A stretch of DNA of 64,000 bases from Ceratodon purpureus (lineage: Eukaryota; Streptophyta; Bryopsida; Pseudoditrichales; Ditrichaceae). The stretch is from NCBI GenBank assembly GCA_014871385.1, contig CM026426.1, positions 36,333,918 to 36,397,917 on the forward strand. The letters are read 5' to 3'. A program made the translations under genes and the position numbers. Shown here one piece after another: positions 21,601-62,124 of this stretch (position 1 is the stretch's first letter; each line of letters begins with the position of its first letter). A model generated the notes under the pieces. The model worked only from the letters and a program-made list of their open reading frames with translations. It was not told the origin of the DNA and did not search any database.

Positions 21601-22266
21601 TTCTGCGTCCCGTGCATTTATGGTGATTGGACTGAGTGTGAGAACTTGGCGCATGTGCAGGAGTGGGCTGTTCAGAGGCTGTGCCCGATGCACGCAGGAG
21701 GTGTAGCACAGCAAATTGAAGAAATTGACGATGAGGCTAACTGGGTGTCTGACGGCATTTCAGAGGAGGTCGATGACTTGGTGGACATCGGCGAGAATTT
21801 CATGATTCCAGCAGAAGAGGAGAATGAAGACAGGGTGGAATTCTACATTCTCCAGTGTCAAGCGAAGAAGTTTGTGTTAGCAGAGCCCAAGACTTGCCCT
21901 TTAGGGGGGGTATTTAGGGATGAATCCAAGTGCTCCCCCTTTTTTTTGCTTGAGTCATCTATTGTCTAGCATAGTAGTCTGTGATTCAGAGAACGTGCAA
22001 TCCCTTATTTTCTTTTATTCTTTATAATCTTCTTTTCATGCTACCCACACCCATTACGTAGTATCACCCATTTTGTATTTCTTTTTTTATTTCGAGTCAG
22101 GCTGGACAGTCATAGTTCTACACTTTGCTGGATATTAGGTACTGTAATTTTTTCCTTTTTGTTTTGGGCCTTTTACAGGGAGCACTGGATAGCGGTACCT
22201 CAAGAGCTCATATCCGAGGATAGCCGTGATATCGTAGAATGTTGGAATTGGAAGCTATCGATTTAG
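18637..22266 (+). pseudogene. DDE-type transposase of element 2 (intron-containing, one in-frame stop)
   Basis: Exon 1 runs from the ATG at 18,637 to about 19,433 (ends CEPQ, donor GTGAGT). After a GTAC-rich intron, exon 2 starts near 20,230 and carries a Cys cluster (CDCACIVCTG, ETCCAHENIF) and DDE-type blocks: HIDYAENYTFVIQNEVQSLY, then ISDDKAHNSAFVQH, then VYSDGCSS, then HGKGEWDGAGAVVKRAL. A Cys-rich tail follows (ELSCFCVPCIYGDWTECENL). The last exon (22,179-22,266, acceptor TTTTACAG) reads EHWIAVPQELISED and ends in TAG. One in-frame TAG at 21,178-21,180 interrupts SDGCSS-FKCATAM where Gln is expected. The same block pattern is known from uncharacterised transposase-like proteins in animal genomes; I cannot name the superfamily. 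It should cut and rejoin element ends; this copy looks inactive unless read through. Confidence 0.7.
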
Positions 22267-22803: not shown

Positions 22804-23910
22804 TCATCTTCTCCTAGGTGGTTTACTGGCTGACCTTCGGATGGCAAGTGGTAAGGCATTGTCTCTACACATTTTACTCATATACTTACAAGTAAACCGA
22901 GGTAGGTCCATATCATCATTGTTAAAATTAGTGCCATAGTCCCAAGTTAGTTCCTCTCCAGGACGTATGATATGACTTGCAAAAAATGATACATGATAGA
23001 AGCGGCAATCTACACTCTCTATCGAAACAGGTATGCCCACTAGCTTAGAATCTTTACACCTCTAATGACAGAGGCCCACAGTCAGGCCATACCGTAGAAT
23101 GTAAGAAGAAAGACCGCAAAGTATGTAGAATACCGTCGTAAGTTCTAACCTGTGGTTAAAAAACCTGGCCACATTTCCAAATCGAGTAGAATCCAAGCAC
23201 AATGCATTGTGGTCATCTAGTTTCCGCTCAATGGCCCACTCAGCATCAAGTTGCAAGCTATAGGACTAACCCCCAACTACCCCCACGTTCCTAACCATTT
23301 GCTCAGCATTTGTTAAAATCTCTACCGCCAACTCAAAAAAGAACGCACCTCTAGGTATTAGCTCAGTTGTCCGAATCCCCCACCCCGTAAGGGCTGTAGG
23401 AAAAACCTCTACTTGAAACTTCATCCCCTGCTGGACAACACGATTGCCACAATCACTATAACACCTACACTTGACACTGCACTCCTTAAGGAAAAGACGA
23501 AGAACATGACCTCGGCACAGTGATTCGCCATTAAAACACCGCCTACCCTTCTTACAGTAATGTGCATCTTCTTCGTTGTGATTGTAGAGAAACGCGTCCT
23601 CCACAATGCCTCCTTTGGTGTATGCAACTCCTCCCACTGAATCGGCTTGGCACGCACAAGTACCATTCCCGCCGAAGCATTCCCGGGAACAAAGACAGTA
23701 GTCCTCGGGGCGAAGGCTTTGAAAGGTGGTAGGCACGTGTGCTTGGTCATAGACCAAGCAAGAATTAATATACTGAAAATAAGTCATAGCAATATCAGAC
23801 CGACCAACAAGGACAGGGATCCTCTCGAGTCCCTTAGACAAATCTGCTGCATCATACCAAGCTTTGGCCTGGTAGAATTCCATCCCAATAGACCACCTTC
23901 TCCTCGTCAT
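22804..23910 (-). pseudogene. SET-domain histone methyltransferase-like protein (SUVR/H3K9 type), one in-frame stop
   Basis: Exon 1 (23,910-23,150) has a Cys-rich pre-SET region (DYCLCSRECFGG, GTCACQ, then KECSVKCRCYSDCGNRVVQQG begins the SET) and SET motif I, TGWGIRTTELIPRGAFFFE. A TAG at 23,266-23,268 interrupts it between MVRNVGVVGG and SYSLQLDAEW. The exon ends in the cofactor-binding block FGNVARFFNHR. The GT-AG intron (23,149-23,060) keeps phase, giving NHR-CKDSKLVGIPV. Exon 2 has RPGEELTWDYG with the catalytic Tyr, then a post-SET FTCKYMSKMCRD in which one Cys of the usual CxC is Tyr. Family knowledge: SUVR-type enzymes methylate H3 Lys9. Protein about 340 residues, without the N-terminal domains of host SUVRs. 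It lies inside element 2, so it is cargo, perhaps a captured host gene. Confidence 0.75.
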
Positions 23911-24206
23911 ACTCTTAAAAATAGAAATGCAAAGTTCCGAGGCTGCTGAGGAAGACTAACATAAGTACAAATGCAAAGAAATCACAATGGATCGCAAATA
24001 ACACATCAGCATGGAAAATAAAGTACACAAGCCGTAACCCTTCCCTATTAGGAAGACCTCAGTGATGAGGTAAGATACATTAATATACCTGCAAATCCGT
24101 TCTATACAAGCATTCTACCGCAGCTCAATAGATCAAAAACCAAAAAAATTAAAATACTAAAAGCAATCTACAGATTGCTCAAGCCCTCATTCTAAGTGCC
24201 GCCTCT

Positions 24207-41073: not shown

Positions 41074-41839
41074 CAGGGTTACCGTGCACGCCGTGCATGA
41101 ACGGAATGCACGGCGTTTTGAGAAATACGTTCGCTTGAACGATCAAGTACGTTCGTCGTGATGAAGGGTTTGAAAAGTCCAACTGCACTAAATGCCTGCA
41201 TTAATTGCCTCTGAACCAGTGAACCGGTAAGCAGCAGTGTGTAGGGTTTCAACTTTCCACTTGCGAGACAACCTTGTGATTATGTTAGTGGCGGTGAGTT
41301 AGTGTTGTGTGCAGGTTTAGGGTTCTTAGTGTGGGCTCGAAATTGTTTCAAGCTCGCTTCAGCAGAGGTAGCTACTAATCATTGTTGGATTTGGAATGCA
41401 GCTGCGGTTGAGAGCTAGCTATCAGATACAGGGATCTCTAGCTTTGTGAAACCGTGGACACAGGGAATTGTCAAATGAGTGCAAGCTAGTTGCAAACCAT
41501 CCTAACACAGCTTACAGGACTTTCAATTCTGCAACGCATGTAAGCTTTCAGTTTACTTGGCAACCCAACTTATCATTTTTAGAACAAGTCCTTTCTCTAA
41601 TCTGAAAGTTATGCTTGGTGATCTCGAGAGTGTTTGTGAACTGAAATTTTATACTTGCTGAGAGTGGGATTTTGAATGACCTTTCTGGACTGCTGTTGGG
41701 TTTTCTTGTTTCAGCAAGTTCGAGGACTTCAACGTAACATTCTCCGGGACATTTTGTGGCAACCATGAAGCAGTGAAAAGAATTGTACAGGGTAAACAGA
41801 GGAGCTTGCTGCATACAGGTTTCTCTAATACTTTCCATC
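41074..41839 (+). promoter_or_regulatory. Left end and leader of the hAT transposase gene
   Basis: The subterminal 90 bases carry GC-rich words (GTGCACG, GAACGG, ACGTTCG). The following sequence up to the ATG has no ORF on the plus strand and contains acceptor-like sites (TGTGCAG at about 41,316; GCATACAG at 41,818), so a 5' untranslated intron is likely. Confidence 0.4.
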
Positions 41840-43771
41840 ATGTCAACTTCCAAGGATTCGTCTTCTGGGAATAGTGGATTAAGAAAATGGCCTCCTAGTA
41901 ATTGTCTTGAGTGGAACTGCGTTAATTGCCTTGCTCCACCACAGAAAATTGGTGGAACATGGCATGTTCAATGCAAATTTTGTTCCAAGGAGTTTCGAGC
42001 TTCATCTTCTGAGAGAATAAGGGATCATTTGATGAGTGTGAAAAGAAATATCCAGCAATGTCCAAGTGTTCCAGATAATGTGAGGGCAAATTTAATGGCT
42101 GCACATTCAGTGAAAGAGCCCAAGAAACGTAGAATGATGGATGCTGTGGTTAATCTTGATAAGGAAGTTCCTCTTCTTTGTGATGGAAGTATACAATCAC
42201 GAGAGCAAGTAGATGAGGCGATAGCAGAATTTTTTTATGGATGTGGGATTCCTTTTAATGTGTCAAGGTCACCATTTTTCAGAAAAATGGTTGATGCTCT
42301 TAGAAGGTACCAAGGAGGTTACAATCCACCGGAATTTAATAGACTGCGTACAACTCTTTTACAAGATGTAAAAGAGAAGCTACAATCGCAAATGGAACCC
42401 ATTCGTAATAGTTGGGATACATATGGGTGTACCATTACATCTGATAGTTGGAGTAGCACAACTAATAGATCACTTCTGAATATATTGTGCGTTAGTCCCC
42501 AAGGTGAATACTTTCTGAAATCAATAGACACAAGTGCTGAAGAAAAGTCAGGTCTAATCATTGCGAAACAATTAATAGAAGCCTTGGAAGAAGTTGGAGC
42601 TGCTAAAGTAGTTCAAGTCATTACAGACAATGCTGCAAATTGTAAAAGAGCAGGTTCTTTGATTGAGGAACAGTTTCCTCACATTACATGGAGCGGTTGT
42701 ACAGCCCATGGATTAGACTTGGTACTAGAAGATTTGGGAAAATTATCATGGGCATGGACTGTAATTCAAGAAGCGAAACTGATTGCAAAATTCATTACAA
42801 ATCATCATCGCAGTCAAGCTCTCTTTAGAGTATTTTCAAGTCAAGATAGAAATTTAGAAATCTTGAGGCCTGGAGAAACCAGATTTGCTACAAATTTTAT
42901 CTTGGTAGAGCGTTTGGTACAGCTAAAACTACCATTACAACGGATGGTACTAAGTGAAGGATGGTTCACTTGGCAACTTGATAGTGGTTTGGAGACGAAG
43001 CGATTAATAGAGTCGTCTATTACTAGTGGTGCTTTTTGGAGGGATGCAGCTCTCTTGGTTCGGGTTTCTCTACCTATTATCAACCTGTTGAGATTGGTAG
43101 ATTCTGGTAAACCAACGGTTGGTAAATTTTTTGAACACATGAACCAATTGATTGAACATGTGCGAGGGTTGCAAGACATAGACGGCTTACAACCATGTAT
43201 GAAAGAAGAAATTGAAGACATACTTCAAGAACGGTGGCGTTTTATGCATAGTCCTATGCATGCTGCCGGGTTTGTCTTGGATCCACAGTGGAAAGGCACA
43301 GGTCAAGAGAAAGATGTTGAGGCCATGGAGGGATTTCGCATAATTAGAAACAAGTTTTTTCCAGATGTTCGAGATCAAGCTATTGTGGAGAAACAACTAG
43401 CACTTTATCGGAGTTCACAAGGTTTGTTTGCAGATCCAGCAGCAACTCTAGTTGCAAAAGAAATACCAGCACATGCATGGTGGAGTTCTTATGGGGCAGG
43501 CACTCCGCAATTACAAGCTATGGCTACGAGAATTTTGAGTCAGGTAACAGTTGCCTCAGCTTGCGAGCGCAACTGGTCACAATTTGATTTTATTCATAGC
43601 AAGCGGCGTAATAGATTGACAAAAGACAGAGCTTCGGATTTGGTCTTTGTTTTCAGCACATTGCGGTTGAAAGAAAAAGTGTTTGATCTGGATTATAAAG
43701 AGCCTTTCATTGAATGGGAAGACTCTGATGATGAGATAGAAGAGATAGAGGATTTGCATTTATGTGGATAA
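41840..43771 (+). CDS. hAT transposase (BED finger, DUF659, hAT C-terminal domain), intact
   Basis: The ATG at 41,840 gives about 643 residues with no stop. I chose it because the upstream 19 codons of the open frame lack an ATG and follow an acceptor-like site. A BED-type zinc finger sits near residues 20-75 (CVNCL, HVQCKFCSKEF, RIRDHLMS). DUF659 begins at FFYGCGIPFNVSRSPFF and has TSDSWSSTTNRSLLN with the first catalytic Asp and VITDNAANCKRAG with the second. The CTAHGLDLVLEDLG and RPGETRFATNFILVERL blocks follow. The C-terminal dimerisation block reads WWSSYG, ATRILSQVTVASACERNWSQ and IHSKRRNRLT. A short acidic tail ends the protein. It excises and integrates the element by cut-and-paste in the nucleus. 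All key blocks are present, so it may be active. Confidence 0.92.
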   Translation: MSTSKDSSSGNSGLRKWPPSNCLEWNCVNCLAPPQKIGGTWHVQCKFCSKEFRASSSERIRDHLMSVKRNIQQCPSVPDNVRANLMAAHSVKEPKKRRMMDAVVNLDKEVPLLCDGSIQSREQVDEAIAEFFYGCGIPFNVSRSPFFRKMVDALRRYQGGYNPPEFNRLRTTLLQDVKEKLQSQMEPIRNSWDTYGCTITSDSWSSTTNRSLLNILCVSPQGEYFLKSIDTSAEEKSGLIIAKQLIEALEEVGAAKVVQVITDNAANCKRAGSLIEEQFPHITWSGCTAHGLDLVLEDLGKLSWAWTVIQEAKLIAKFITNHHRSQALFRVFSSQDRNLEILRPGETRFATNFILVERLVQLKLPLQRMVLSEGWFTWQLDSGLETKRLIESSITSGAFWRDAALLVRVSLPIINLLRLVDSGKPTVGKFFEHMNQLIEHVRGLQDIDGLQPCMKEEIEDILQERWRFMHSPMHAAGFVLDPQWKGTGQEKDVEAMEGFRIIRNKFFPDVRDQAIVEKQLALYRSSQGLFADPAATLVAKEIPAHAWWSSYGAGTPQLQAMATRILSQVTVASACERNWSQFDFIHSKRRNRLTKDRASDLVFVFSTLRLKEKVFDLDYKEPFIEWEDSDDEIEEIEDLHLCG

Positions 43772-47717: not shown

Positions 47718-47746
47718 CATGGTTGTCATAAAAGACCGACCGTCCG
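47718..47746 (+). repeat. Element 1 left terminal inverted repeat
   Basis: Starts CATGGTTGTCATAA; about 23 of 29 bases match the reverse complement of 60,857-60,885. Confidence 0.75.
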
Positions 47747-47854
47747 TTAGTCCGTCATGGTGACAAGACACACCTCCGTGTCCGTCACATAAGGGCGCTA
47801 ACCAATTGACTCACGGTAAGGATAAAACAAATTTACCTAGCGTTGAATTAGTGC

Positions 47855-48180
47855 GGGCAAGAGCGCGATTACGGGCGAGTGCATGCGGGCGCGAGCAGTA
47901 CGACGGGCGCGAGCATCCGCGCAAATGCTATGTCACAGGCGCGTGCAGGAGTGCGGGAGAGCGAGGGCGTGTGCGTCGTTTCGGCCGCGCGTGTGCGCGT
48001 GCAAACGGGCGCGATCCAGTTGACGGTTGCGAGCACAGTTATCAGGCGCGGTCATGTGGGCGCGAGCCTGGATCGGGCACGTACAGTAATGGGCGCGTGT
48101 GTTTGGGCGAGTGCGCTGCATTGGGCGTCGGCGGTCGGGCGCGAGCGCTGCAGGTTAGACGGGAAAGAGCAACCTCGAGC
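47855..48180 (+). repeat. GGGCGCGAGC array A1 (left end)
   Basis: Irregular copies of ACGGGCGCGAGCA with spacings of roughly 15-40 bases; exact GGGCGCGAGC at about 47,887, 47,904, 48,058 and 48,137, and variants such as GGGCGCGATC and GGGCGCGTGT. Lies between the left end and the 3' end of the kinase gene. Confidence 0.85.
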
Positions 48181-48342
48181 AACCTCGGGCAACGAGAGGG
48201 CATATATTTCAGGAGAGGGCAATTGGGAAGTGCAATGTTTATTGAAAAGTATTGCAAAATTGTGGCAGTAAACCGCTTACAAAGAATGTCCCCTCTTATG
48301 GAGAACTGGGAATATCACATTGTTGTCACTACTTGCCTACTT

Positions 48343-49910
48343 CTAAATATGTTTGCGATAACAACACTTAGGGATCTGGAAATTGTAGGGAGGGGCTGTT
48401 AGAGTAGCATGGGCCAACTGCAAGGTGGAGCGTTTCTTGGGATCGGGATTTGTGAGCTCCTTCAACACCACTACAAATCTAGCCTTCCCCGCTTATTTTT
48501 GAAAAGGTCGTAGTCGTCCTCGTCCTTCCAAATCATATTTGCTACCACTCCAACCGAGTACGCATCGGCAGCCTGCGTATATAGATGTCTCCTCCTTAGA
48601 GTTTCATATGAGGTCTCCGAATTTCGCTTACCATAAGTGTACCACAACTCCGGAGCCACAAAACTACCACGTTCCTTGAAGGCTTCCGTACACTTCGCTG
48701 CAGTTGGGTAACCGTACTTTGAAGGAGTTGTCTCGCAAGTGCGACTTGCCATGCCCCAATCGCATACTCCAATGTAAACTTTGCTCACTTTATCCTCTGG
48801 GAAGTGAAGCAAGACGTTTCCCGGGGAGATGTCATTATGTTGCAAATACCCCTTATGGACCCGGTCCATAATACAGATCAGTGCCCAAGCTAGCTTGACC
48901 CTATGGGTGCGGAAGGCCTTAACACGGTCACGTGTTTCCATGGGCTGATCTGTCTGCTTGTGGATGTTACGGTTCTGAGTACCCTCCAAGATATTTGAAT
49001 TGAACTTGTGCAGAAAATTCTAAAGGCAATCACCATTCCACCAAAGCGTGTAGGCTTCCATCGTCCAGTCATTGACTGCAAAAAACTTAATAACGCCGGG
49101 ATGGTCAATCCTGCAAACCATGGCTTCTATTGCTGTCTGGTACCACTTCTGGGTCTCGTCAGTAGCCTTCGACATCTTTCCCGCAAAGACACAAGTCCCA
49201 GGTATGGTTTCCATGCCAACAGTACGTAATTTTTGGACTTTACTATACCCGCCTTCCCTTATGCTTGACAGCGGAATCAACTTGACCCCTCTCGGAACTC
49301 CAACCACTGCTCCCCACAAGTATTTATCCATTGCGCTTTTCATTCCAGCTTCAAGCCATGGCCTCACCCTCGTTCTATTACTCGAGAATCTCTTGCACGA
49401 ATCTTGGACATATTTGAGCTTCTCTATTTCCTCCTTCTGCGCCTGCGAGTAGCCCTCCGTTGGCTTCTTGTTGACACACTCAAACACATGCACAATGTTC
49501 GTAGTGTTTGTTATTATTTGATGCTCCATCCACTTAGGGAAATGATAGTAATTAATGCAATGATTATATCTCTTGGAACACTGCAGCTTCTTCCACAAAT
49601 ACTCTTCCAACTGCTCCTTTAATGCCTTAATTCCCGACTCTCCCTTGTCAATGTATGTACGGGTAATCGCCTCCCGTTTACGACATTCGTACCACTCCAA
49701 TGTTAGCACTCAAACAAAATCTTGGTACCGAGGAGGTGGGTAGTCCGGGTCCTTCTCACCCGCCCGTTTCCGGTTCTTCTTTCCCGTGGAGCTCGATGAC
49801 GGGTTCGAGCCAGTATGAGATGGTGCTGTGGAGGTTGCCACCACCTCATCTACAGGAGCATCAAGATCTACATACGCGGGACGTTTCTCGAATCCATGAG
49901 AGAATGACAT
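48343..49910 (-). pseudogene. Transposon-borne protein kinase, broken by two stops and a frameshift
   Basis: The ATG at 49,910 starts MSFSHGFEKRPAYVDLD, followed by a Ser/Lys-rich linker and a 150-residue N-terminal region. The kinase domain has a glycine-loop-like REGGYSKVQKL, the VAIK-type lysine in VFAGKMSK, an alpha-C Glu (AIEAMVCRIDHPGVIKF), catalytic loop HNDISPGNVLL, DWG in place of DFG (GVCDWGMASR), APE (SFVAPELWYTYG), ADAYSVGVV and the final Arg block TNPDPKKRST. All catalytic residues are present. The HxDISxGN loop recalls the fungal FunK1-type loop more than usual plant kinases. Defects: TGA at 49,710-49,712, TAG at 49,020-49,022 and a frameshift near 48,490 before the last 40 residues. 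Intronless. Likely role unknown; could phosphorylate the transposase or a host factor. Confidence 0.8.
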
Positions 49911-50080
49911 AGTTGGAATATTAAATTGGACACCAAAAAAAAACAAAAGTTCCCCCCCACCCAATCTGATTGCTCCCACTTCTTGCAGTTCCAAGCAGAG
50001 CACGTGGAGTCACGAGCTACGACAAGGAGCCACCTGGAAGAGGAGACTTTGAAAAGTAGAAAATAAGGGTTAAGGGGAGC

Positions 50081-50088
50081 CTTTTATG
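50081..50088 (-). promoter_or_regulatory. TATA-like box of the kinase gene
   Basis: Minus strand CATAAAAG, about 170 bases upstream of the kinase ATG and immediately downstream of array A2. Confidence 0.5.
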
Positions 50089-50099
50089 CTCCCCTCGGA

Positions 50100-50440
50100 T
50101 GATTGCGCCAGTAAGCGCGTACAGGAGCCCGTACAGGGCCTCCACGCGCCCGAACACGGACTCTACACGCGCCCGTCGGCCGCGTTTGCATGCGCCTGAG
50201 GAGACTGCCCGCGCCCGTGCGCGCGTCTGCGCGCTCGTTAGCCCAGATCAAGCGCGCTCGACGACGCTACAGGCGCCCGTGCCCGCGTGCTCGCGCCCGT
50301 AACCTTGCACGCGCCGGTTATCTGTACGCGGCTGCTCGCTTTACGCGCCCGTGACCGTGCACGCGCCCGTCTCCGTGCACTCGCCCGCCTTCCTGTAAGC
50401 GCTCGTCCCGTGCACGCGCCCTCATATGCAGCGTTAGATA
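50100..50440 (-). repeat. GGGCGCGAGC array A2 (kinase promoter)
   Basis: Copies lie in the opposite orientation to the other arrays: the plus strand shows GCTCGCGCCCGT, GCACGCGCCCGT and CTACACGCGCCCGT repeatedly. About 190-530 bases upstream of the kinase ATG. Confidence 0.85.
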
Positions 50441-50759
50441 CAGGTTCGACTACGGTATACCCATATATTGAACAGAATACAAAAAAAAAATCACTGGTCA
50501 ATGTCTCAATGGAAATATATTATTCGCATTTAGCGCTCAAAAATTAATACACAGCACAACCATACAATTCCTTCGAGTGTGAGATAATGAACTAGTGTGT
50601 CTTTAAGTAACAGTATATGTCTACGTAATAAGAAGGTATTAGCAAAAAAAAAAAAAAAATTTTAAGAATAACATAGTATTGTTTTTGGGGTTTTAGCCGG
50701 TAGATTTTATGGTTAGATTTACTGCTACTTCATGCGCTAAAAAAGTGACCACAGTCTAC

Positions 50760-53700
50760 TCTCTCCTTGTCTTGCGGGGCTTTTTCTTGCGTAAAGGTTG
50801 TCTTTTTCAAGCCAAAGTCGGCCCCAATTCGTGCCGAATTATCACATCCCCGTCATTTGGCGCCTCATCGCAACCTGGGTCTTCCTCGTCTGAGCGCTCG
50901 TTGTCACCTTCATCCTCAGGATCACCGACCACTGGAGCTCGTACCTCTCCTTCCACCTCCGATGTAATATTGCGCACTTGGATGGAAATTTCCCCCGTAT
51001 CGCCATCTCTGGCACTTACTAGGCGTTTCATACGCCTCTCCTTTCCTCCATTACCGATGGCTGTGATGCCATCCTCACTGATTACGCGTGTGTGAACAAC
51101 CCCAGTTCCAGAAGATGGCCCACCTTCAGTGTACCCTCTATAGAATGGGAGGGGATCGGGTCCGATTCTTTTGCTTGTCTTTTGTGTTCCTCCACGGGGT
51201 TCTTGTGATGGTGGTTTCTAACAACCCTGTCTACGGACTTCTTCGCACCACGCTGGGCCACACTCTGTATGGCGTCGTCTATAGCTGGCGCCACGGCGTC
51301 GTGGTTGACGGTGGAGGCACCACGTCGACTACCACCAGCTCAATGGAGTGGAGGCCTCGCCGCTGCAGATGATCTAAGGAGTCTAGCTATTTTTGCGCCC
51401 ATTGAACCCGTGGGCCTCCGAGCCAAGCCTTCATCCACAATTGTATCTGCTTCGTTACCCCCCATATCAGAGGGTTGCCATGGAGGCATAGTCCATGCGG
51501 GGATTGCGTGAACGGCCCTTCTCTCCTCAGCAGGAGGAATCTCTTGAAGCAAGCTTGAGTCTCCTTGTGTCGAACCTGTTCCCCAGTTGCCCTCCCCACT
51601 AATGAGACTGGTCCAATGAGGTCCATCTCCACCCCGTCCATGACTTCCATCACCCCCTTCGTCATTGTCCTCGTCATCATCGCCAGCATGGTTATTGTTG
51701 CCAAGATGGTCCTCGCTGGATGAATCATCCGCAACCCCGTCATTGTTATCGGGATTGATTTGGACTGGAATAGCATCTCCTTCGTCACGTGCGTCTCTTC
51801 CTTCTGCATTAGCCGCTTCATAAAAAACCGGGGGTGTAGGTAATTCGTCTCCATAGCTGTTAATGTCCGGGTTTTCTTGGTCATATTTTGGTTCACTGTT
51901 GAAGTCGTACGCATCACCGTTATCATCGTGGTTGTTGCAGTCACGACGATTGTTGCGGTTAGCGTCATCACCCCCGTTGCCATTACCGTCCTTATGCCCA
52001 TTCATGTTAACGTCATCGTGATCATGTCCCCAGACATCATCATCCTTACCGTCTGCGTGGTCATCCGGTATGTAATGATCGTCGTCATCTCCGTCCTCTT
52101 CGCTTGGATCTCTCTCCGGATCTGACTCCTCTGACCATGCATTGTTCTCGAACCATCTGAGGGGGTTGGGCTTTGGGCGTTCACGGAGGAGTCTGTTGTT
52201 CGTATAAATGTACACCAAGGCCTCAGACTTCTCCACCCCTAGGCGGTTGCGTACCTTGTTGTGGACAAACGAATACATGCTCCAATTCTGTTCACACAAT
52301 AAGGCAGAGCAGACCTGAGATAAAATGCGCTTCGCAATGATTGCCAAGGGCCCCCCCCAATCTTTTGCCACCATTGATGGGGTTCCAGATTCGCTGCTTT
52401 AATATCAATGGTCACTTCGGGGCTGTAAGGGCCAAGTTCCTCGTCGAACTGGGTAATCTCTACCACGAGTTCCGCAAATGGAATTCCCATTTGCCCACCC
52501 ACCTGACAAAACACCCGATTGAGAGCTGCCTTCGCTTCTCCTATGGCTTGTAAGTCGCGATGCCCTTTGGTCCAAGGGTTCAAGAGCGCCGCGGCATAAT
52601 GAAGATCCGTGTGCATCATGTCCCATCTACGGTCGAATCGCCTCTCCAGCCTTGTTGCCATGTCCGGTGGGAAAAAGCAAGGGTCTCCTCGGAGACTGTA
52701 CACGTGATCCTTTAGGTTGCTCATTGTAACCTATGCCTTGCCCATTGCGGGCTGGTTTCCATCGAACAATCTGAGAGCTACCAGGGCTGGTTTCACCAGG
52801 TGCTTGAAGTTGTCACGCTGATGCCAGAATCCATCATCACGGATTGTTTGACGCACTAGGCTTGCGCGTGCATGATTACGCACCCCCTCGGCTTGGTTGA
52901 ATAGACCGTCGACATACTCGAACCACTCCGATGCCATGACCACTTCCTCCAAAGCAAATTTAACCTCCATAAGGCGCGCTATCATCAGATAGTTACAAGC
53001 GAATCTGGTTTCAGCAGGAACCACCAAGGACAACTTGGGTTCAAATTTGCGGAAAAGGGTCATAGGGACATGATGTCTCCGAATGTAATGACACATGTGT
53101 TTAGCTTTGGCGACCAAATCCTTTACAAAGCGTTCCTTGCCCCAGTACTCCATAAGAAGATCTAGAATATGGGCACAACATCCCTGCTTGTACATGTCAG
53201 GATACTCCTCTAGGATATTATCCATGGCGCCAAGCATGTTGCTTGCATTGTCCGTACAAATCTGGACAACATTCTGAGGGCCAATTTCTCAAATATACTT
53301 CTTCATCTCCCCCGCAATGTATCCCATTGACTTCTTCTCGCCTGTCGTATCAACAGACCCAATAAATACATCACCTGCCGGACATACTAGCATGACATTC
53401 ATCAACGGTCGGCGATTCACATTATCCCAACCATCGGAGCATATGGTAGCCCCGTATAACTTGGTCGAGGTTTTCGTACGTTCATCAATCTTTGCCTTGA
53501 TTAACTTCTTTTTTTCCTTGATGTGCGTTGTTCGCATCGCGTTATAGGAAAGGGGATTGTAGTCAAATCCGGCAGCCGCCGTTGTGCTCACCGCCTTAAT
53601 AAATGCTGGGTGCTTGGCCACGTTGAATTCGACGTTGGCTTCGTAAAGAAGGATGACCACAACATGTCCAGTTCCTTTCGCTTGGAGATCTGGATTGCTT

Positions 53701-54199
53701 CACTCATGTCCTGTTGCCACAAGCTCCTAGTGGTATTCGAACCGGCCCAACTAGATGCAGCACTGGAGACATTTTGGTCCTCTTCGGTATCATTATACGA
53801 GGGTTCGGATCCATCGTATAGAGTGCCGTGTGTGGAAGCACTCGAACACGGACGTTGAACTGACGCGGGGAACGTTGGCCTGATACCATCCACCTCCTCC
53901 TGTGTCAAAGGGCCGGGAATCTTTCCAGCGCAAAACTGAAACTTCCTCTTCACTACGGTAGGTGCCTTCTGGCAAACCCTCGAGAGGTTAGGCTGGTCCT
54001 AACCATAATGCTGAAGGCACCTAGACTTCACGTACGAAAGCTTGGTCCTGCAATACACACATTGGGCTTCCTTAATTGACAGTGACCCTTCCTTGAGCTT
54101 GACCGTAAACCATGGTGCCCACTTTCTCGTAGGGAGTCTCGGAATGGCTCTAGCCGGAGCAACCACTTCAACCGCTTCAACCGCTTCAGCCGGATCCAT
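50760..54199 (-). pseudogene. Element 1 hAT transposase with BED finger and long acidic tail, broken
   Basis: The ATG at 54,199 starts MDPAEAVEAVEVVAPARA. BED-type finger: QCVYCRTKLSYVKSRCLQHYG. DUF659 core: YEANVEFNVAKHPAFIKAV, CSDGWDNVNRRPLMNVMLV (first Asp), VVQICTDNASNMLGAMDN (second Asp), GCCAHILDLLMEYWG, VPAETRFACNYLMIARL. C-terminal dimerisation: WWQ, IIAKRILSQVCSALLCEQNW and FVHNKVRNRLG. Then an unusual tail of over 300 residues rich in Asp, Asn, His and Gly (DGDDDDHYIPDDHADGKDDD), possibly continuing to about 50,760 with a basic KKKPRKTRR end. Defects: TAG near 53,999, frameshift near 53,655, TGA near 53,289, TAG near 52,731, frameshift in the C8 run near 52,355, TGA at 51,340. Should mobilise element 1; inactive in this copy. 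Confidence 0.85.
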
Positions 54200-54443
54200 A
54201 GTGAATGATTAGGGAAGTATCGGGACTAATAGGACCAGTAGAACCAAAAGATTATTATCTGATATAACTTAGTGTGTCTGAAAAGTGCTTGACACATTGA
54301 TTTATGGAGAGAAGAATTTTTACATTCCCCCCACTCAAACCAAGTGTCTCCACAAGCTAACAGTTTCAAGCAAGGAGCCCTGAAGGAGACCCAGGACTTG
54401 AAACACGCAAGAAGGTAAGGTGGATGTCAAATCAAGGGGGCAG

Positions 54444-54451
54444 TTTATATA
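54444..54451 (-). promoter_or_regulatory. TATA box of the element 1 transposase gene
   Basis: Minus strand TATATAAA, about 245 bases upstream of the ATG and about 30 bases downstream of array A3. Confidence 0.6.
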
Positions 54452-54479
54452 CTGCCGCCCTCGACTTGGTGAGTACTGT

Positions 54480-54790
54480 CTCGACGGGCGCGATCCGACG
54501 GGCGGCGCGCACGAGGAGATCGGGCGCGCTCCGAAGCGAACGGGCGGGCGCAGGTGGAAGCGCACGATTGCAGGCCGCATGGCAAATCGCGCGCGCAAGG
54601 GAGATAAGCGGGGGCGGGCGCATGCGGGCGCGAGCGCTGGAGGACAGGTGCGCGCGCGAGCGTAGAGGTGACGAAGCGGGGGGGCGCATGCGGACACTGA
54701 CTGGCGAATGCAGGTGCGCGCGCGCGCTGGCGGTCGAGTGCAGGCGCGCAGGAGCGAGCGCGAGCAAACAGGCGAAATCGATTTGGCGCG
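54480..54790 (+). repeat. GGGCGCGAGC array A3 (transposase promoter)
   Basis: Copies such as GACGGGCGCGATCC, ATCGGGCGCGCTCC, ATGCGGGCGCGAGCGC and AGGTGCGCGCGCG. Open frames across it are Arg/Ala-rich artefacts of the repeat. Confidence 0.85.
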
Positions 54791-55109
54791 CTCAATTCAC
54801 TGAGATAAAAATACCAATGAGAGGGAAAAATGAATAAAATTTAAAAAAATTAAAGTGTGTGAACTACAAACACGTGAACATCTACAGAAAATAAAAGAAA
54901 TCCTATTTAGATTCAGATTGTGACACATGAGTGAAGCGAGAGGACTACCCACCCCATTCACACATGTCTAAGAAGTGGAGTACGTTGTCCACTTGCTCTT
55001 TATGTGTCTGCCTTCCCAGTTGAAGGAAAGTTGTTTTAAGCTAACCTCGGGCTGAGTTAGCTAAAACTATGTGATAAATTTTTCAAGTTACCGTGTTATT
55101 TCAGTCAAA

Positions 55110-55375
55110 ACCACACGCGCGCGCGCACGTGGCGTAGTTGGGGACGGGTGCGAGCAGTCGCTCGAGAGCAGTTGGGCGAGAACGGTTGGGCGCGAGCAGG
55201 GCGCGAGCAGTTGGGCGGGCTCGTAACCGCGCATGGAAGGCGCGCGCGCGCGAGTACTTGCGGGCGCGAGTGCGTGTGGGCGGCTGCGCGCGCGCATGGG
55301 CAGGTCCAATGGAGCGACCGCGAAAGCGATCGCGCGGACGGACGGGCGTGATTGAACGGGCGCGCGCAATGAAGT
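55110..55375 (+). repeat. GGGCGCGAGC array A4
   Basis: Copies such as TTGGGCGCGAGCAG, GGGCGCGAGCAGTTGGG and TTGCGGGCGCGAGTGC, upstream of A3 between the transposase and RING-like genes. Confidence 0.85.
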
Positions 55376-55454
55376 TAAAATGCGGAAGTTCAAAAAAAAT
55401 AAAATTAAAAAAAGTCAACGGAGAGTATGGACTACAGTGAAATATAATTCATTA

Positions 55455-55879
55455 GTATGGGAGATTGGTGGAACTAAAAAGAAAAAAAATTAAAAGATCG
55501 AATAGGCATTCAAATTATAAAATAATCTTAACCACGAAAGGAAAAAAAATAAAAACAAGGGGATAGCATGGGGGAGTGGTGGAATTAGAAAAATGAACGG
55601 ACGAAGAAGGGATAAGGAATTAAATAAAAGCATAGTGTTCTAAGAAGGGGAAAAAGGAAAAAAAACAAATAAAAGAGTGTAGGATTATTAAATAAAAACA
55701 AGGAGATAGGATGGGGGAGTGGTGGAATTAGAAAAATGAATGGACGAAATGAGAGAAGGAATTAAATGAAAGCATAGTGTTCCAAGAAGGGAAAAAAAAA
55801 AAAAAAAAACAAATTAAAGAGTGTAGGATTATTAAATAAAAACAAGGAGATAGGATGGGGGAGTGGTGGAATTAGAAAC
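55455..55879. repeat. About 143-bp tandem repeat, 2.2 clear copies plus a degenerate one
   Basis: Units start at about 55,560, 55,702 and 55,846 with GGATAGGATGGGGGAGTGG and contain AAGCATAGTGTTC and GAGTGTAGGATTATTAAAT. A weaker copy begins near 55,455. Purine-rich on the plus strand. Lies between arrays A4 and A5. Confidence 0.85.
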
Positions 55880-55904
55880 GTTATTTCAGAAATCTTGTTG
55901 GAGT

Positions 55905-56300
55905 GCTCGGATGCGTGCAAAACGGGCGCGAGCACTGACATGCGCGGGCGCGTACGGGCGCGTGCAAATGGAAAGAGGGAATTCGAGGGGAGAAATTAGT
56001 TGCATGATACGATTGCAGTGGTCGCACGCGTGCAATGACGGGCGCGAGCAGTCGGGCGCGTGCAACATCAGGCACAAGCAGAACGCGAGAGACATTGTGG
56101 GGGGGAGAATGAGTTTCCACGATTCGGTACCCATGCGCGCGCTGTTGGTTCAATGGGCGCGAGCAGCTCTCGCGCGCACGCGTACGGGCGCAATCCTGTC
56201 TTGACTCTCGCCAGGGACTGGTGTTCGCGCGCAGGCACGCATAGTACGGGTACGCACACTACGGGCGCGCGCAAACGCGCGCGAACATGCAGGCGGGTCC
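55905..56300 (+). repeat. GGGCGCGAGC array A5
   Basis: Copies such as AACGGGCGCGAGCACTG, GACGGGCGCGAGCAGTCG, TCGGGCGCGTGCAAC, ATGGGCGCGAGCAGC and ACTACGGGCGCGCGCAA, downstream of the RING-like gene. Confidence 0.85.
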
Positions 56301-56707
56301 ACGGTTCAAATCCACGTAATATAAAATTCAGTCCATACCTTAAATACACTTACCATAAATTAAATTTTCTTACCGCAACTTAAATCCACTTACCATGCTA
56401 AACATTTTGGTGTGCACCAGAGTTATTTATACACTTATCATACAATGGAAGGAGAAGAGACAACGGACGGAATGGACAACATTTTTGGCAATCAAAAAAC
56501 GGGAGACCAATGCGGGGAGAAAAGAAGCGTCTTGGGAACCACGACAATGATTTCGTCCTGAAAATTAACATCCATTGATTGAGTTTAACAAACGTTAAAC
56601 ATGTGAATGTAATCCTAAACCTATCCAATTCCCTATGCCTTCTACATGTACTTATATTCCGATATCTTTTTACAAAACGTGGTCTCCACTCTTAGATCTC
56701 CACGACG

Positions 56708-59217
56708 TCACGTGCCCGGTGCAGAGGAACTCGATCCACCCTCATCGTGTCGTGCACGAGAGCTCCCCGCTGCACTACTTTCTGCCCCATCGCTAGCGAT
56801 GAATTTCCGCTTCGCAGAACGGGTTCTCTTCGCTATGCCATCTCCTCCAAGCATTGCTTCCATGAAGTTGCTGTCGCGCATCCGACGGAGCACTGTTAGG
56901 GTCTCCGGAGTATGTTACGCGCATAGGAAATTGACGGCTTGAGCCTTGAACAATATATCCCATTCAGATTCTGCGGCTTGTAAGTCATTAGCGATCTGGA
57001 GTTCCTCTTCAGTCATTTTGTGCAACCCCTTGTGCTGATCCACAACCATCTTCCCTTTGGAATTCCACCTAAATCCAAGACGATGGGCGCCGTACTGGAA
57101 TGTACTGGTTTGAACATCCCAGTGCCCTCGTAGCACTTGGTAGAAGAAATTCCTCCTTCCCTTGAGTTCGTCGTCTGTCCCGCCCCTAATGAGTTCGTGG
57201 CAGATCCTTACAATCTCCGTAGGATCCTGGTCCCACCCCCACTGTGCGCTCATTTCTTTAGCATAGGTCTGGTACATTCCCATAAGCCAATTCCAAATCA
57301 AGTCTTCACTCCACTTGTCTAGAAAGTCAGGAGTATATTCCTTATTTTGCTCCCAATGCGGTGGCATCCAGGTCGCTAAGCCGAACTGCTCATAAAAACG
57401 CTTGTGTAAGGGGGCCTTACATACTGCACACCACCGACGTATCATGGCATGGGAAATCAAGCATTGTGGATAATACATGCACTGACAGGATCCCAATGAC
57501 CAGTCCCCCTCTGGCCCAAATGGATTGGTACAAACGGGACACTTGGTTCCATCCAACACATACTTCGGTGGATTGGGCCAGAGTAATCTTGGCTATATAT
57601 TACTATTCTCAGGGATCTTCTCATTGGATTTGGAGGTCTTGTACTCCGACTCCAACTGCGTCCAATCTATTTCCTTACCAATCATCGGTATGTTGTCAGA
57701 GAACATTTCATCTGGATCTGCCCACGAGGTAAGTCCGAAATCCCTCTTGGAGATAAGCTTGAGGTAGTCGTGGTCAATCCTCTTGAACTCACTGTACATC
57801 TGTCTGTAACCGTCAACGTTCAGAATGCATGCAATCTTCCATTGGTAGTACTGTCTGCTCATCTGGATTAGATACGTTCTGAGCATCCCGTAGGTAGCTT
57901 GCAATTCGGAGACAGTGGGTACCGATGGCTGTTGAAATCCCAAAGAGTCCTCCGTCTCTTGAGAATCCACGAACATGATTTGCCGCTGGGGGGGCGCATC
58001 ACTTGACTTGATGATGCGAATGGGATGATTGGCTCACGGGGAACTCGGATCGGGGTATCTTCCAGGAGATCGTGCGTGGCCGATTCAATGATGGCATTCA
58101 CGTCTTCCTCGTTTATTCCAGGGCTACCAGGGATTGGAGCTTGGCTCACCTCGGGTACGTTAATCGGAGTCCTCGTAGATTTAAGTTGCGAAATCTCTTC
58201 ATTCTGCTTCTAGATAATCTCATTCATCCTATCAGCTTCTTCATATAAGTACTGGATAGTCTTCTCCATCTCAGAAATCAACGCATTTTTTTCTTCCAGC
58301 TCGTTACGCAATGCGTCCCCTTCCTGGCCTTGGGTATCAACGGCGGCTATTGTAGCCTCTAACTCAATTGCAAACCCATCGTCATCATCTTCCATTACAT
58401 TGCTCGCGCCTGCAATCTGTGGAATCAATATAGGAGGAGCTACATCAACATTGCTCGGGCCCCTAACGATTGCTAGAGGAGCCTGATGAGGAATACCCGG
58501 TCCAGTAGGATTTGCAGGCGGTGCACAATTCCTCGTTGACAAACACGCAGCTAACTCAGGGTCCTTCTTTTTTAACCGTGTGATTTTGGCACTAGTCGCT
58601 GCTCTTGTTTGTGACTGGGGGTCACGGTCTACCGTACCATCAGAATCATTATCCTCCCTTGATTCACTCCAATCAACAAGCGCATGATCCTCGGGATCAT
58701 CCAAGTATGCCCAGTCATGATTTGGAAATGTTAGGACCCCTGTAGGTATCGCCATCTCTTGTGGACGCCGCTGGATGCTAGGAGTCGTTCGTATGGTCTT
58801 CCAATCCACCTGCCTATGAAGCAATACCTCAGCATATACCATTCTAGAGATAAAGAGCGGAACCTCGTTTCTCTTGTTGATTGGCTGTTCGTATAGAACC
58901 TGGTACACCTCCAAACACCGCCTCCCGAACTGACGGTTCTTGCAATATTTCATGTTCGCCTTGTTTGATTGACGATTGTTATTATGACGGTGCAACGGGA
59001 AAAACTTCCCAATGTGGCACCATTCAATGAATTCCTCACACGTTGCTAGACTCCAGGGTTGCGGTGCGGCTTTCCACCCTCTGAATGCCAGCTTTGCAAG
59101 ATTTATTAAGACGTGAACCCTCTTAGGTTGGAGGTTTCCATGCCTGGGCCGTCCTCCATCCTTTTGCTTTTTCCTCTGTTCTACCTCCGTCGGCGGAGTC
59201 GGTCGTTGCTGTTCCAT
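56708..59217 (-). pseudogene. Coiled-coil / RING-like zinc-finger protein of element 1, broken
   Basis: About 836 codons from the ATG at 59,217. The N-terminus is basic (EVEQRKKQKDGGRPRHGN) and followed by a region with FRGWKAAPQPWSLATCEEF. A coiled coil lies near residues 300-350 (LRNELEEKNALISEMEKTI). The zinc finger (57,541 to about 57,390) has CPVCTNPFG, SCQCMYYPQC, H, then CAVCKAPLHKRFYEQFGL, a RING-like C/H spacing. A C-terminal acidic and helical region ends with a basic KRTRSAKRKF segment and TGA at 56,708. Defects: TAG at 58,210-58,212, frameshift in the C7 run near 57,990, TAG at 57,593-57,595, TAA at 56,915-56,917. The finger resembles the one in the element-2 protein. RING fingers usually bind ubiquitin-conjugating enzymes; here the role is unknown. 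Confidence 0.65.
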
Positions 59218-59490
59218 ATCTGCTCAAGGTAGATCGTTCTTTGAAGTCTTCCAAAAGTGCAAAATTAAAAGCCTACGACTACCCCAAAACCTCAATCACA
59301 TTTACAAATTATAAACATTTACAATATTTTCAAATGTACCACACAACCACCATAGAGTTCTGAAGAATAAAAGCGATAACAAGTGTGAAAGTGCTGGGAT
59401 CCACCTGAGTACCAAGCAATCAGCTACCCGGAGGCTGTTGAAGGCGAGGTGCTAAAGGGGGGGAGTGCAAAATGAGGGGGCGGATCGCCC

Positions 59491-59497
59491 TTTTATA
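59491..59497 (-). promoter_or_regulatory. TATA box of the RING-like gene
   Basis: Minus strand TATAAAA at the downstream edge of array A6, about 275 bases from the ATG at 59,217. Confidence 0.65.
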
Positions 59498-59870
59498 GTC
59501 ACGGGCGCCAGGGAACGGGCGCGAGCATTCTGCTACGGGCGCGAGCAGAGATCCTACGGGCGCGCGCGGGCACCGAAGGCAGGGTTTCGGCCGTGTATAC
59601 CTCCGCGCCCGCGCGGGTATCAATGGGCGCGAGCGGTTTTCATGGCGGATATATGACGGGCGTGAGCAGGTTTTACCGCGCACGCGCGCGGGTATGGACC
59701 CGGTCTTCATCGGGCGCGAGCGGGCGTCGTCCGGGTACCGAAGGGGCGCGCGCGCGGATGTTGTCGCGGGCGCGCAGATATTGATCGGGCGCGATCGCTT
59801 GATGGACGGGCGCGAGCATTGGTCCACGACGGGCGCGCGTGTTTCCGATAACGGGCGCCACCACAAACTA
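59498..59870 (+). repeat. GGGCGCGAGC array A6 (RING-like gene promoter)
   Basis: The clearest array: ACGGGCGCGAGCATTC, ACGGGCGCGAGCAGAG, ATGGGCGCGAGCGG, ACGGGCGTGAGCAGG, TCGGGCGCGAGCGGG, TCGGGCGCGATCGC, ACGGGCGCGAGCATTGG, ending ACGGGCGCCACCA. Spacing about 20-40 bases. Confidence 0.9.
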
Positions 59871-59975
59871 GAACACTGTTAAAAATGAAAGTAAACCAAA
59901 AGAGAACTTGCAGCTTCAGGGTTAAAAAAAATACTTTATTTATTTTGAAAATTTATCACTTCATTGTTATGTCAA

Positions 59976-60428
59976 TTACAGTGCCATGCATTCTAGGTAC
60001 CGGTCCTCTAGGTCTTTCAAGTGCGTCTCGAAATGGTTTGTTTGAGCACTAGAGACAATATTGGGGACACAAAGTATTGCCATCTCCTTCTTCAGTTCTT
60101 TGATGAGATCTCCAATCTCAGAGTCAAGTTCTTCCACAGTTGCTTGGGTTGCCAACTGCTCTTCAGTGGTTGGAGGCAGAGGGCTTCCATTCTCTACGTA
60201 GGCCACCAAATTGTCACGGCGAGAGATCCAATCCTCGAACAAATCGATCTGTTTCTGGAGTCGCTTCAGCATTGACCAAATAATTGTGTCCGTTAGCTGT
60301 GTAGTGCCCAATGGGGTGCCACCATTCGTTAAACTCATGTACGACTTGATTTGTTGGCAATTGCATGCGTTGGAATTCATGTTGGACGGTACAACGATTG
60401 TTGTGAAACCCACCGTAACACTAAGCAA
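59976..60428 (-). CDS. Small coiled-coil protein of element 1 (150 residues), intact
   Basis: An uninterrupted frame from the ATG at 60,428. An internal Met (MNSNACNCQQ, residue 17) is an alternative start. The middle and C-terminus are helical and charged: MLKRLQKQIDLFEDWISRR, EELDSEIGDLIKELKKEM, HLKDLEDRYLECMAL. No enzyme motif or zinc finger. It has its own TATA box and array, in the same plan as the other three genes, so it belongs to the element. A dimerising accessory factor is a guess. It is the only element-1 ORF without a visible break. Confidence 0.65.
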   Translation of the reverse strand: MLSVTVGFTTIVVPSNMNSNACNCQQIKSYMSLTNGGTPLGTTQLTDTIIWSMLKRLQKQIDLFEDWISRRDNLVAYVENGSPLPPTTEEQLATQATVEELDSEIGDLIKELKKEMAILCVPNIVSSAQTNHFETHLKDLEDRYLECMAL

Positions 60429-60505
60429 TTAGCTACCCTCGGGCTGTTGAAGGCAAAATGCACAAAGTGGGGGAGGGGGTGCGAATCAGTGGAGGGGGGG
60501 TGGCA

Positions 60506-60512
60506 TTTTATA
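60506..60512 (-). promoter_or_regulatory. TATA box of the small coiled-coil gene
   Basis: Minus strand TATAAAA, about 80 bases upstream of the ATG at 60,428 and just downstream of array A7. Confidence 0.6.
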
Positions 60513-60524
60513 CTCAAGGGGGCG

Positions 60525-60790
60525 ACAGTGTGGGCGCGTGCAGGTTGGGCGCGCGCAGGCTGGTTTGGGCGCGAGCAGATTGATCCTATGCTACGGGCGC
60601 AAGCGACCTTGATCGGGCGAGGGTAATCAGGCGCAATCACCGCGCGCGCGCGAGACAGACGACGGGCGAGATGAACCACAGCTGACATTCGCGAGCAAGC
60701 GCAGATACGTGCGAAGATGCGACGACGGGCGCCACCCATGGTAAACAGTACTAAACTGTGAGGACAGTAATTTTGCTCGCGCGGGGGAGC
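60525..60790 (+). repeat. GGGCGCGAGC array A7 (right end)
   Basis: Copies such as GTGGGCGCGTGCAGG, TTGGGCGCGCGCAGG, TTGGGCGCGAGCAGA, CTACGGGCGCAAGC and GACGGGCGCCACCCA, followed by CCGTCCGT words up to the right end. Confidence 0.85.
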
Positions 60791-60856
60791 GCGTCCAATA
60801 AGCGTCCGTCCGATAACCGTCCGTCACGTCCGTCACGTGACTACATGACAATTTTA

Positions 60857-60885
60857 TGGCCCGTCTGTCTATTATGACAACCCTG
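60857..60885 (-). repeat. Element 1 right terminal inverted repeat
   Basis: Reverse complement begins CAGGGTTGTCATAATAGAC. The sequence just inside repeats CCGTCCGTCACGTCCGTCACG. Confidence 0.75.
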
Positions 60886-60886
60886 G

Positions 60887-61397
60887 ATGCTTCGGTGCGA
60901 CAATGGAGGAGAATTTGTATCAACAACCTTTGCCAAGTTCTGTGAAACCGCAGGTATCCGGCTACAGTTCATACAGCCCTAGAGTCTGTACTAGAACGGC
61001 ATCTCTGAGCGCTGAAATCGATCACTACAGGACATCGTGCAATGCTTGCTACTGGGTAAAAATCTCCCTGGGATCCTTTGGGCAGAAGCTGTGAGAGCAG
61101 CCACAATCATCGTGAATCTACGTTCTACTAAAGAAAACCCAGGCATGACCCCCGATAAGATATTTTTTGGTAAGAAACCTGACATATCAAATCTTCGAAT
61201 TTTTGGATCTGTAGTATACGTCTACATTCCTTTTAAAAAAAGATCTAAACTTGACTCTCACACTCACAAGTGAATCTTGCTGAGCTATGACACCCACGTG
61301 AAGGGGTACCGTTGTTTCTCCTTCGAAAAGAAACAAGTGATAGTTTCAGGCGACGTGCATATCATGGAGGACGTGCATAACAGTTTACTGCCCCTCT
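60887..61397 (+). pseudogene. Ty1/copia integrase fragment
   Basis: In one frame: LRCDNGGEFVSTTFAKFCE, ETAGIRLQFIQP, then stops within the QNGISER-NRSLQDIV block, then LLLGKNLPGILWAEAVRAA, MTPDKIFFGKKPDISNLRI and FGSVVYVYIP, ending RCFSFEKKQVIVSGDVHI. This is the C-terminal half of a copia integrase catalytic domain (LRxDNGGEF, NGxxER, W.EA motifs). Four in-frame stops (three in 60,980-61,020, one at 61,271-61,273). The fragment begins immediately next to the element-1 right end and its upstream half is not found on the left flank. Confidence 0.85.
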
Positions 61398-62124
61398 AGT
61401 AACTGCAATTTTTTTGCTCCCCTACAGTTTTACTGCCCTTCTATTCTACTACCTTAAATCCCTGGTTAACAAAGGCAATGCATGCGCTCGCCGAACCTGC
61501 CACTTTGTCGCTTCCATTTTTATTCTTATCCGCCATATTGGTCATCTGCACCTGTGGGCGACAGTGGAAAGCCAGGGTAAAGTCGCCCTAATATGCGAAG
61601 GCCAAGAAGTTTTTGCCAACGTACATGAGTCTCCAAGCACAAAAAGGGAGTACCGGACATACGATAATGAAACTCTGAGTGCAAAAAGAACCATCGCTAC
61701 ACACCTCCACAGAGCACTCCACACGTGAGTCCTTCCAACAACTTTCTCTATCCCAATTCTCCGCTCTTGCACAATCAACATGTCAGAAACTAGTATTCGG
61801 TATCAAGAAGAGTACGGGGTGAAGTTCCAGAGAGTTGATCGTTTTGGTGGCGAGCCCAGCTGGTTGGAGGCTTGTATAAGAGAGTATGAGCTCGGCCCAC
61901 ATGGACCTCGCCACGGCACGCTGATTAAGATTATTGCAGAATCCGCAATTCCCTTTCACTCATCAACGTCGCAGGTGACAGCAGTGGCGGACGCCTACGA
62001 CAGAGCTGAGAATTCAGAAAACGAAGGAGAGAACGACGCCATAACATCCTCCCAGAGAAATCGGTGCGTTTTCGTTCACAGCAACCCAAATCGACGGAAG
62101 AGACACATTGATCACCCTTCTTGA
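61398..62124 (+). CDS. Unrecognised plus-strand exons
   Basis: An open segment up to about 61,728 (TVESQGKVALICEGQEVFAN, KREYRTYDNETLSAKRTI) ends near a donor GTGAGT. A second frame, 61,780-62,124, reads RYQEEYGVKFQRVDRFGGEP and WLEACIREYELGPHGPRHG and ends in a basic tail (NPNRRKRHIDH). An acceptor-like TGTCAG lies at the start of the second. They could be two exons of one gene. No family recognised. Confidence 0.35.

Follow-up and report, generated by a model that had tools for sequence, protein, structure and literature searches.

Can a hAT transposon of a moss carry a protein kinase and a RING-finger protein as working parts of its own? The question is raised by a 64 kb stretch of Ceratodon purpureus DNA (the window, C6:36333918-36397917), in which an initial annotation had placed a giant hAT-type transposon with four minus-strand genes between positions 47718 and 60885. 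Searches of the whole genome (362,488,568 bases in 151 contigs, with 110,524,308 bases in contig C6) reveal a recently active family of four-gene hAT elements in C. purpureus, and the copy in the window is its fossil. On balance, the window element is probably an old copy, now decayed, of an autonomous DNA transposon of the hAT superfamily, whose four genes are its working parts.

The C. purpureus genome of 360 Mb includes U and V sex chromosomes of more than 100 Mb each, about 30% of the genome, according to the accessible text of PMC8000587. Because of these sizes the window copy presumably sits on a sex chromosome.

Structure and coding content of the element

The element, its ends and its genes lie in the window as follows (lengths in base pairs, bp, or amino acids, aa):

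47718..60885, genes on the minus strand: whole element, 13,168 bp, a decayed copy without target-site duplication
47718..47759, plus strand: left terminal inverted repeat, on the kinase side, CATGGTTGTCATAA...
48343..49910, minus strand: protein kinase gene, decayed, 522 aa in intact copies, its limits taken from the match to the frame of copy L035
50756..54199, minus strand: hAT transposase gene with DUF659, a hAT dimerisation domain and a long acidic tail at the C-terminus, decayed, 1148 aa when intact
56708..59217, minus strand: gene for a RING-finger protein with coiled coils, decayed, 850 aa when intact
59976..60380, minus strand: gene for a small coiled-coil protein, with an open frame in this copy, 134 aa when intact, no Pfam family
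60844..60885, minus strand: right terminal inverted repeat, on the small-gene side, CAGGGTTGTCATAA... on the minus strand

The inverted ends fall exactly at the positions first proposed, 47718 and 60885. Their arms of 42 nt each are 74% complementary, are separated by 13,084 nt and form the longest inverted pair listed within 44-64 kb. Ends of this type, also written as CAGGGTTGTCA, carry CATGG/CAGGG, short inverted ends of the hAT kind; CAnGG-type short ends are a trait of the hAT superfamily. The four annotated minus-strand genes, for a kinase, a hAT transposase, a RING-like protein and a small protein, are indeed found between the ends, decayed in the window and intact in other copies. In-frame stops interrupt the kinase, hAT and RING genes of the window copy, the latter two also show frame changes, and the small gene is open. 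Introns were ruled out as the source of the frame changes by the intact copies, in which the kinase, transposase and RING protein are each encoded in a single open frame (a stop interrupts the RING gene in one of the three copies inspected). No Rfam families or tRNAs were found in searches of the window.

The transposase is the most readily recognised of the four products. In the window copy DUF659 matches at E 4e-33 and Dimer_Tnp_hAT at E 0.0016, below the cut-off, and in the intact protein both pass it (E 3e-34 and 2e-5, respectively). The label BED/hAT given to this gene at first is upheld in its hAT part; for the BED part, a Cys/His pattern is seen by eye at the N-terminus, and Pfam at E 0.1 gave no match to BED in the intact copy.

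The kinase of the window copy matches Pfam Pkinase at E 6e-7, just under the cut-off, and that of an intact copy just at the cut-off. It has 84 relatives at E <=0.001, and among the 42 of these that were aligned, K247, E264, HND361-363, N368 and DWG387-389 are invariant or nearly so; judged by these residues, the predicted protein has the catalytic Lys, Glu, HxD, Asn and DxG of protein kinases. Its structural model has a predicted local distance difference test (pLDDT) score of 86.6 and finds protein kinases as best fold matches, and a PDB sequence search with the kinase gave no match at E 0.001.

The RING match is weak in the window copy (zf-RING_2, E 0.26) and reaches the cut-off in relative P0091 (zf-RING_2, PF13639). 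Eighteen relatives were found; one is 96% identical, and among the remaining 17 there are 13 at 34-41% identity. In an alignment of 16 of the 18 relatives with P0001, seven of the eight zinc-ligand positions are invariant in the 17 sequences and the eighth is Cys or His. This is the C3HC4/C3H2C3 ligand pattern, and a role as E3 ligase is predicted from it; fold comparison places RING E3 domains first, with weak E-values (E 0.48 and probability 0.97 at best).

Copies across the genome

Exact matches to the ends of young copies were counted in the genome, with reversed patterns as controls. The left end occurs 144 times and the right end 85 times (controls 0 and 0), and a looser end pattern allowing up to two mismatches, for either side, occurs 551 times (control 0). 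A DNA search with the left end gave 40 scored matches among 430 candidates, at 83-100% identity. For pairing, 100 listed of the 144 exact left ends and all 85 right ends were used, with a range of 1-25 kb on contigs C1-C5 and 0-40 kb on C6. This yielded 29 pairs spaced 13,853-16,482 bp, one more pair 30.8 kb apart and no shorter pair; for about 70 of these 100 left ends no exact right end lay within that range. It had been proposed in advance that such an element should recur in copies with the same genes, and numerous copies were indeed found, 14-16 kb long, with 8-bp duplications and with an unchanged set and order of genes. Copies with these ends and a transposase alone, which would have spoken for an ordinary hAT, were not seen among the exact young ends that were paired.

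Gene contents were taken from loci listed as best-scoring among 1372 kinase, 1738 RING, 1585 transposase and 323 small-gene candidates. A listed kinase and a listed RING gene both lie inside 19 of the 29 pairs, a kinase only inside six, a RING gene only inside two and neither inside two, and a listed small gene inside 28; because only best-scoring loci are listed, these figures do not demonstrate the absence of a gene from a pair. Spacing is regular. An exact right end lies 1,641-2,599 bp upstream of 52 of the 53 listed RING loci, an exact left end 610-642 bp downstream of 26 of the 28 listed kinases on C1-C5, and a listed kinase 2,436-2,477 bp from 34 of the 40 listed hAT loci. Within 40 kb, 43 of the 53 listed RING loci have a listed kinase, always on the same strand, and 37 of these lie at 9.2-12.3 kb in the expected order. 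Among best-scoring full-length matches, 71 of 82 kinases and 39 of 46 RING genes have no stop; the same is true of 36 of 40 best-scoring transposases, and a stop is present in 11 of 150 best-scoring small genes.

Target-site duplications were compared in 14 other copies and agree at eight of eight positions in 13 of them and at seven of eight in one. Four of these were the copies with both ends visible among seven examined (three 8/8, one 7/8), and ten were hand-picked from the 29 pairs (10/10 gave 8/8). Parts of nine copies were aligned to the window element: four match it over its whole length (on C5, C4, C6 and C1), another two, both on C6, span both ends with inner gaps, and the C10 copy runs to the limit of its stretch. 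The suggestion that common strand, upstream plan and repeat arrays mark a unit and not a product of chance is borne out by this recurrence of the same genes in the same order, with 8-bp duplications, in many genomic copies. Between three young copies synonymous divergence (dS) is 0.009-0.018 in the three large genes, and the spread of the family is therefore recent.

The exact ends are unevenly distributed. Of the listed left ends, 66 lie in the first 101 Mb of C6 vs. 34 on C1-C5 (~124 Mb), and only 18 of the 85 exact right ends are on C6. Contig C6 may be a collector of broken or older copies.

Selection on the four genes

Ratios of nonsynonymous to synonymous substitution (dN/dS) were calculated from one copy each of two subfamilies (C5 vs. 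C1), with 95% bootstrap limits. The values are 0.44 (0.27-0.74) for the kinase, 0.43 (0.32-0.58) for the hAT transposase, 0.55 (0.39-0.81) for the RING gene and 0.23 (0.03-0.77) for the small gene. All four genes are under purifying selection, which, within broad confidence limits, is about as strong on the accessory genes as on the transposase.

Repeat arrays and upstream regions

The window holds 32 occurrences of the motif GGGCGCGAGCA (<=1 mismatch), where shuffles predict 0.44, and 31 of the 32 are within the element. The repeats of the element are distributed as follows:

47843..48180, plus strand: GGGCGCGAGC array at the left end
50110..50430, minus strand (motif on the minus strand): array upstream of the kinase
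54480..54790, plus strand: array before the transposase gene, rich in GC but with few exact motifs
55110..55370, plus strand: array between the hAT and RING genes
55547..55878, plus strand: 144-bp tandem repeat, with a copy number that differs strongly among element copies
55905..56300, plus strand: array downstream of the RING gene
59500..59860, plus strand: array upstream of the RING gene
60520..60750, plus strand: array upstream of the small gene

Counted on both strands in seven copies, the core GGGCGCG is present 2-13 times in the 700 bp upstream of every one of the four genes of every copy. Gene bodies have none in 27 of 28 cases and one in the other (the kinase body of one copy is cut short). 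Most occurrences of the longer motif are on the plus strand; those on the minus strand are confined to the region before the kinase. A TATA-like box lies 129-285 bp upstream of the start of each gene in the two copies inspected, those of the window and of C5. Observed/expected CpG in the window is 1.4-1.6 in arrays and 0.6-0.8 in genes.

The regions before the RING gene (59217-59480) and the small gene (60380-60480) have a leader stretch in common, GCCTTCAACAGCC...GGGTAGCT.ATTGC, which might be a promoter that was duplicated or an intron in the leader.

Relatives in another species

A complete RING gene, 38% identical and matched over residues 1-840, is found on a contig of 4,906 bases (L049) that was binned with a cyanobacterium (isolate AVDCRST_MAG81). 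Upstream it has a GCGC-rich tandem array and a TATA-like box, and downstream it is followed by an end of the kind seen in the moss element:

L049 4819..4829, minus strand: end of a related element, CAGGGTTGTCAAAAAGGACGGAC...

The contig is probably plant DNA that was mis-binned, the public bin being contaminated, and its source is probably a moss. In the same bin a contig of 2,449 bases, not linked to L049, carries part of a transposase with an acidic tail, 45% identical over 279 columns. A kinase search of 386 genomes of the phylum of that bin, made without a positive control, gave none at E 1e-20.

An IMG/VR search gave no relatives of the kinase or the RING protein. Matches in IMG/VR to a 16-base end pattern (22 stretches) were dropped; they are at about chance level by a rough estimate in which the collection size was assumed.

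Function of the accessory genes and alternative explanations

If the element is an autonomous four-gene transposon, the hAT transposase would excise it and reinsert it at its ends, and the kinase, the predicted RING E3 ligase and the coiled-coil protein would be working parts and not passengers. The kinase and then the RING protein would mark proteins of the host or of the element, by phosphorylation followed by ubiquitylation, and such marking would let the element escape silencing or would hold the transposase at a useful level. Probably the arrays serve as binding sites for a protein of the element, the transposase or another, that would turn the four genes on together. Anti-silencing is our first guess for the role of the accessory genes, one that we hold tentatively. 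Somewhat more speculative is the fuller picture of a moss lineage of giant hAT elements with its own signalling module, in which kinase and RING ubiquitin ligase would disarm or redirect host control with the GGGCGCG arrays as shared switch, kept through deep divergence and recently active.

Several observations weigh against these readings. The window copy has no 8-bp duplication (flanks GTGTACAT vs. GATGCTTC); it was probably rearranged after insertion, since a copia integrase can be read by eye in the right flank (window 60886-61400) and not in the left. Partial copies exist, because two of the nine aligned copies, on C2 (4.45 Mb) and C6 (99.05 Mb), keep only the left 3.5 and 6.1 kb, respectively, and the lists of best-scoring loci favour intact copies. 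The RING assignment suffers from a zf-RING_2 match below the family cut-off in the intact protein (E 0.011) and from a poor structural model (pLDDT 53). The dN/dS values rest on a single pair of copies, of which the C1 copy has broken transposase and RING frames. In L049 the RING gene points toward the element end, opposite to its direction in the window, and gene order is therefore not fixed across lineages; a kinase of this type was not found in the bin of L049, where there were two weak matches only. Finally, CpG decay in four old copies is similar for arrays and genes, and the CpG richness of the arrays is therefore no sign of escape from methylation.

The alternative that we rank second, and consider rather unlikely, is that the transposase itself, and not host silencing, is the target of the accessory proteins, through phosphorylation, turnover or control of overproduction. 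It would suit the assembly of the genes in one unit with a common upstream plan, and also the long acidic tail of the transposase, present too in relative L072; a single transposase substrate would hardly require a kinase and an E3 ligase together.

The element might also be a repeat already described for the Ceratodon genome. The genome study is said to have named a cut-and-paste repeat, RepeatX, on the sex chromosomes, and the host, C. purpureus, is the same. We find this identity unlikely, as the literature searched, that study not among it, never names RepeatX together with the moss, and intact copies also occur across the smaller contigs.

Less likely still is that an ordinary hAT once captured host genes for a kinase and a RING protein, which now ride along without a role. 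Capture of host genes is frequent among plant DNA transposons, and kinases are plentiful among the genes of the host. Passengers of this sort are hard to reconcile with full, uninterrupted reading frames in many of the best-scoring copies, with dN/dS below 1 in all four genes, or with the nine RING relatives that at 34-39% identity still cover 95-99% of the protein, and the RING gene adjoins a related end in another species. Pack-type elements hold captured pieces that differ from copy to copy and are without purifying selection; here the same genes are found in end-to-end copies, with dN/dS of 0.23-0.55. Relatives of the kinase or RING gene with unrelated ends were not seen in the minority of the relatives' contigs that was examined. 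A chance nest, in which other repeats were inserted between the ends of a simple hAT, can be dismissed despite the mobile-element remains in the surroundings, as the same content and order recur on many chromosomes with flanking 8-bp duplications.

Surroundings of the element

At 41834-43768 (plus strand) the window contains an uninterrupted DUF659/hAT protein of 645 aa from ATG, with no clear inverted ends found nearby; it could represent either an ordinary hAT or a gene that was domesticated. Long open reading frames (ORFs) with a Cys-rich stretch and no Pfam match are found at 18589-21966 (plus strand); we take them to resemble a KDZ-type transposase. An ORF at 23269-23955 (minus strand) has a weak SET-domain match (E 0.0014, below the cut-off), and a reverse-transcriptase fragment lies at 13521-14009 (minus strand; RVT_1, E 5e-16).

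Comparison with known systems

With the hAT superfamily (Ac, Tam3, Hermes and the DUF659-type hATs of plants) the moss element shares DUF659 and Dimer_Tnp_hAT, 8-bp duplications and short inverted ends. It differs from ordinary hATs in its size of 14-16 kb and its three further genes. Its transposase of 1148 aa has an acidic tail, unlike the tail-less hAT-like protein of 645 aa at 41834-43768, to which it is 33% identical over 510 columns.

The initial annotation had held that a hAT with this gene set is not a described class. This stands in so far as no such hAT was met in the literature searched; it has to be qualified in that DNA transposons with accessory genes, including a type with an alpha-kinase, were known before. 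The titles and abstracts of the literature searched, which did not cover the Ceratodon genome paper, report no hAT that combines kinase and RING genes. To our knowledge, few plant DNA transposons have accessory genes known to aid them. In a term search of the accessible text of a review of giant transposons neither hAT nor kinase is named (PMC6431247), and a survey of plant hATs states, in the part available, that none were found in the moss Physcomitrella (PMC6027215). If the conserved kinase and RING genes serve the hAT, escape from silencing by way of phosphorylation and ubiquitin becomes testable, in a haploid plant amenable to gene removal. There is also a warning for annotation, in that many genes named 'protein kinase' and 'RING' in such a genome may belong to transposons.

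The VANDAL elements of Arabidopsis are Mutator-like. Their sequence-specific proteins act on noncoding tandem repeats and include the VANC anti-silencing proteins (PMC10398659). Like VANDALs, the moss element is a plant DNA transposon with repeat arrays in its noncoding parts; unlike in VANDALs, no VANC-like protein was recognised among its proteins.

TET/JBP genes are present in DNA transposons of fungi, including hAT7, whose duplications are 7 bp long, and those IS3EU families that carry TET also encode an alpha-kinase; in the accessible text TET is proposed to counter silencing, and gene order is kept in some families (PMC12730594). The moss element resembles these as a DNA transposon of a known superfamily with genes for accessory enzymes. 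It differs in its host and in its genes, which encode a kinase of the Pkinase fold, a RING protein and a coiled-coil protein. No TET family turned up when the four intact proteins were compared with Pfam at E values up to 0.1, and the word RING does not occur in the accessible text of PMC12730594.

Styx of Zymoseptoria is, in the portion of PMC10853768 available, a DNA transposon of 7.9 kb with four ORFs, an IS3EU-type transposase, GATA, CCHC and DUF3577 motifs, and waves of activity. The moss element is like Styx in its four ORFs and waves of activity, and unlike it in that the transposase of Styx is IS3EU-type, its length 7.9 kb and its motifs others. The occurrence of accessory genes in DNA transposons thus fits what is already known, and the hAT of C. 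purpureus, with this gene set not met in the literature searched, joins them with a transposase, a kinase, a RING protein and a small coiled-coil protein.

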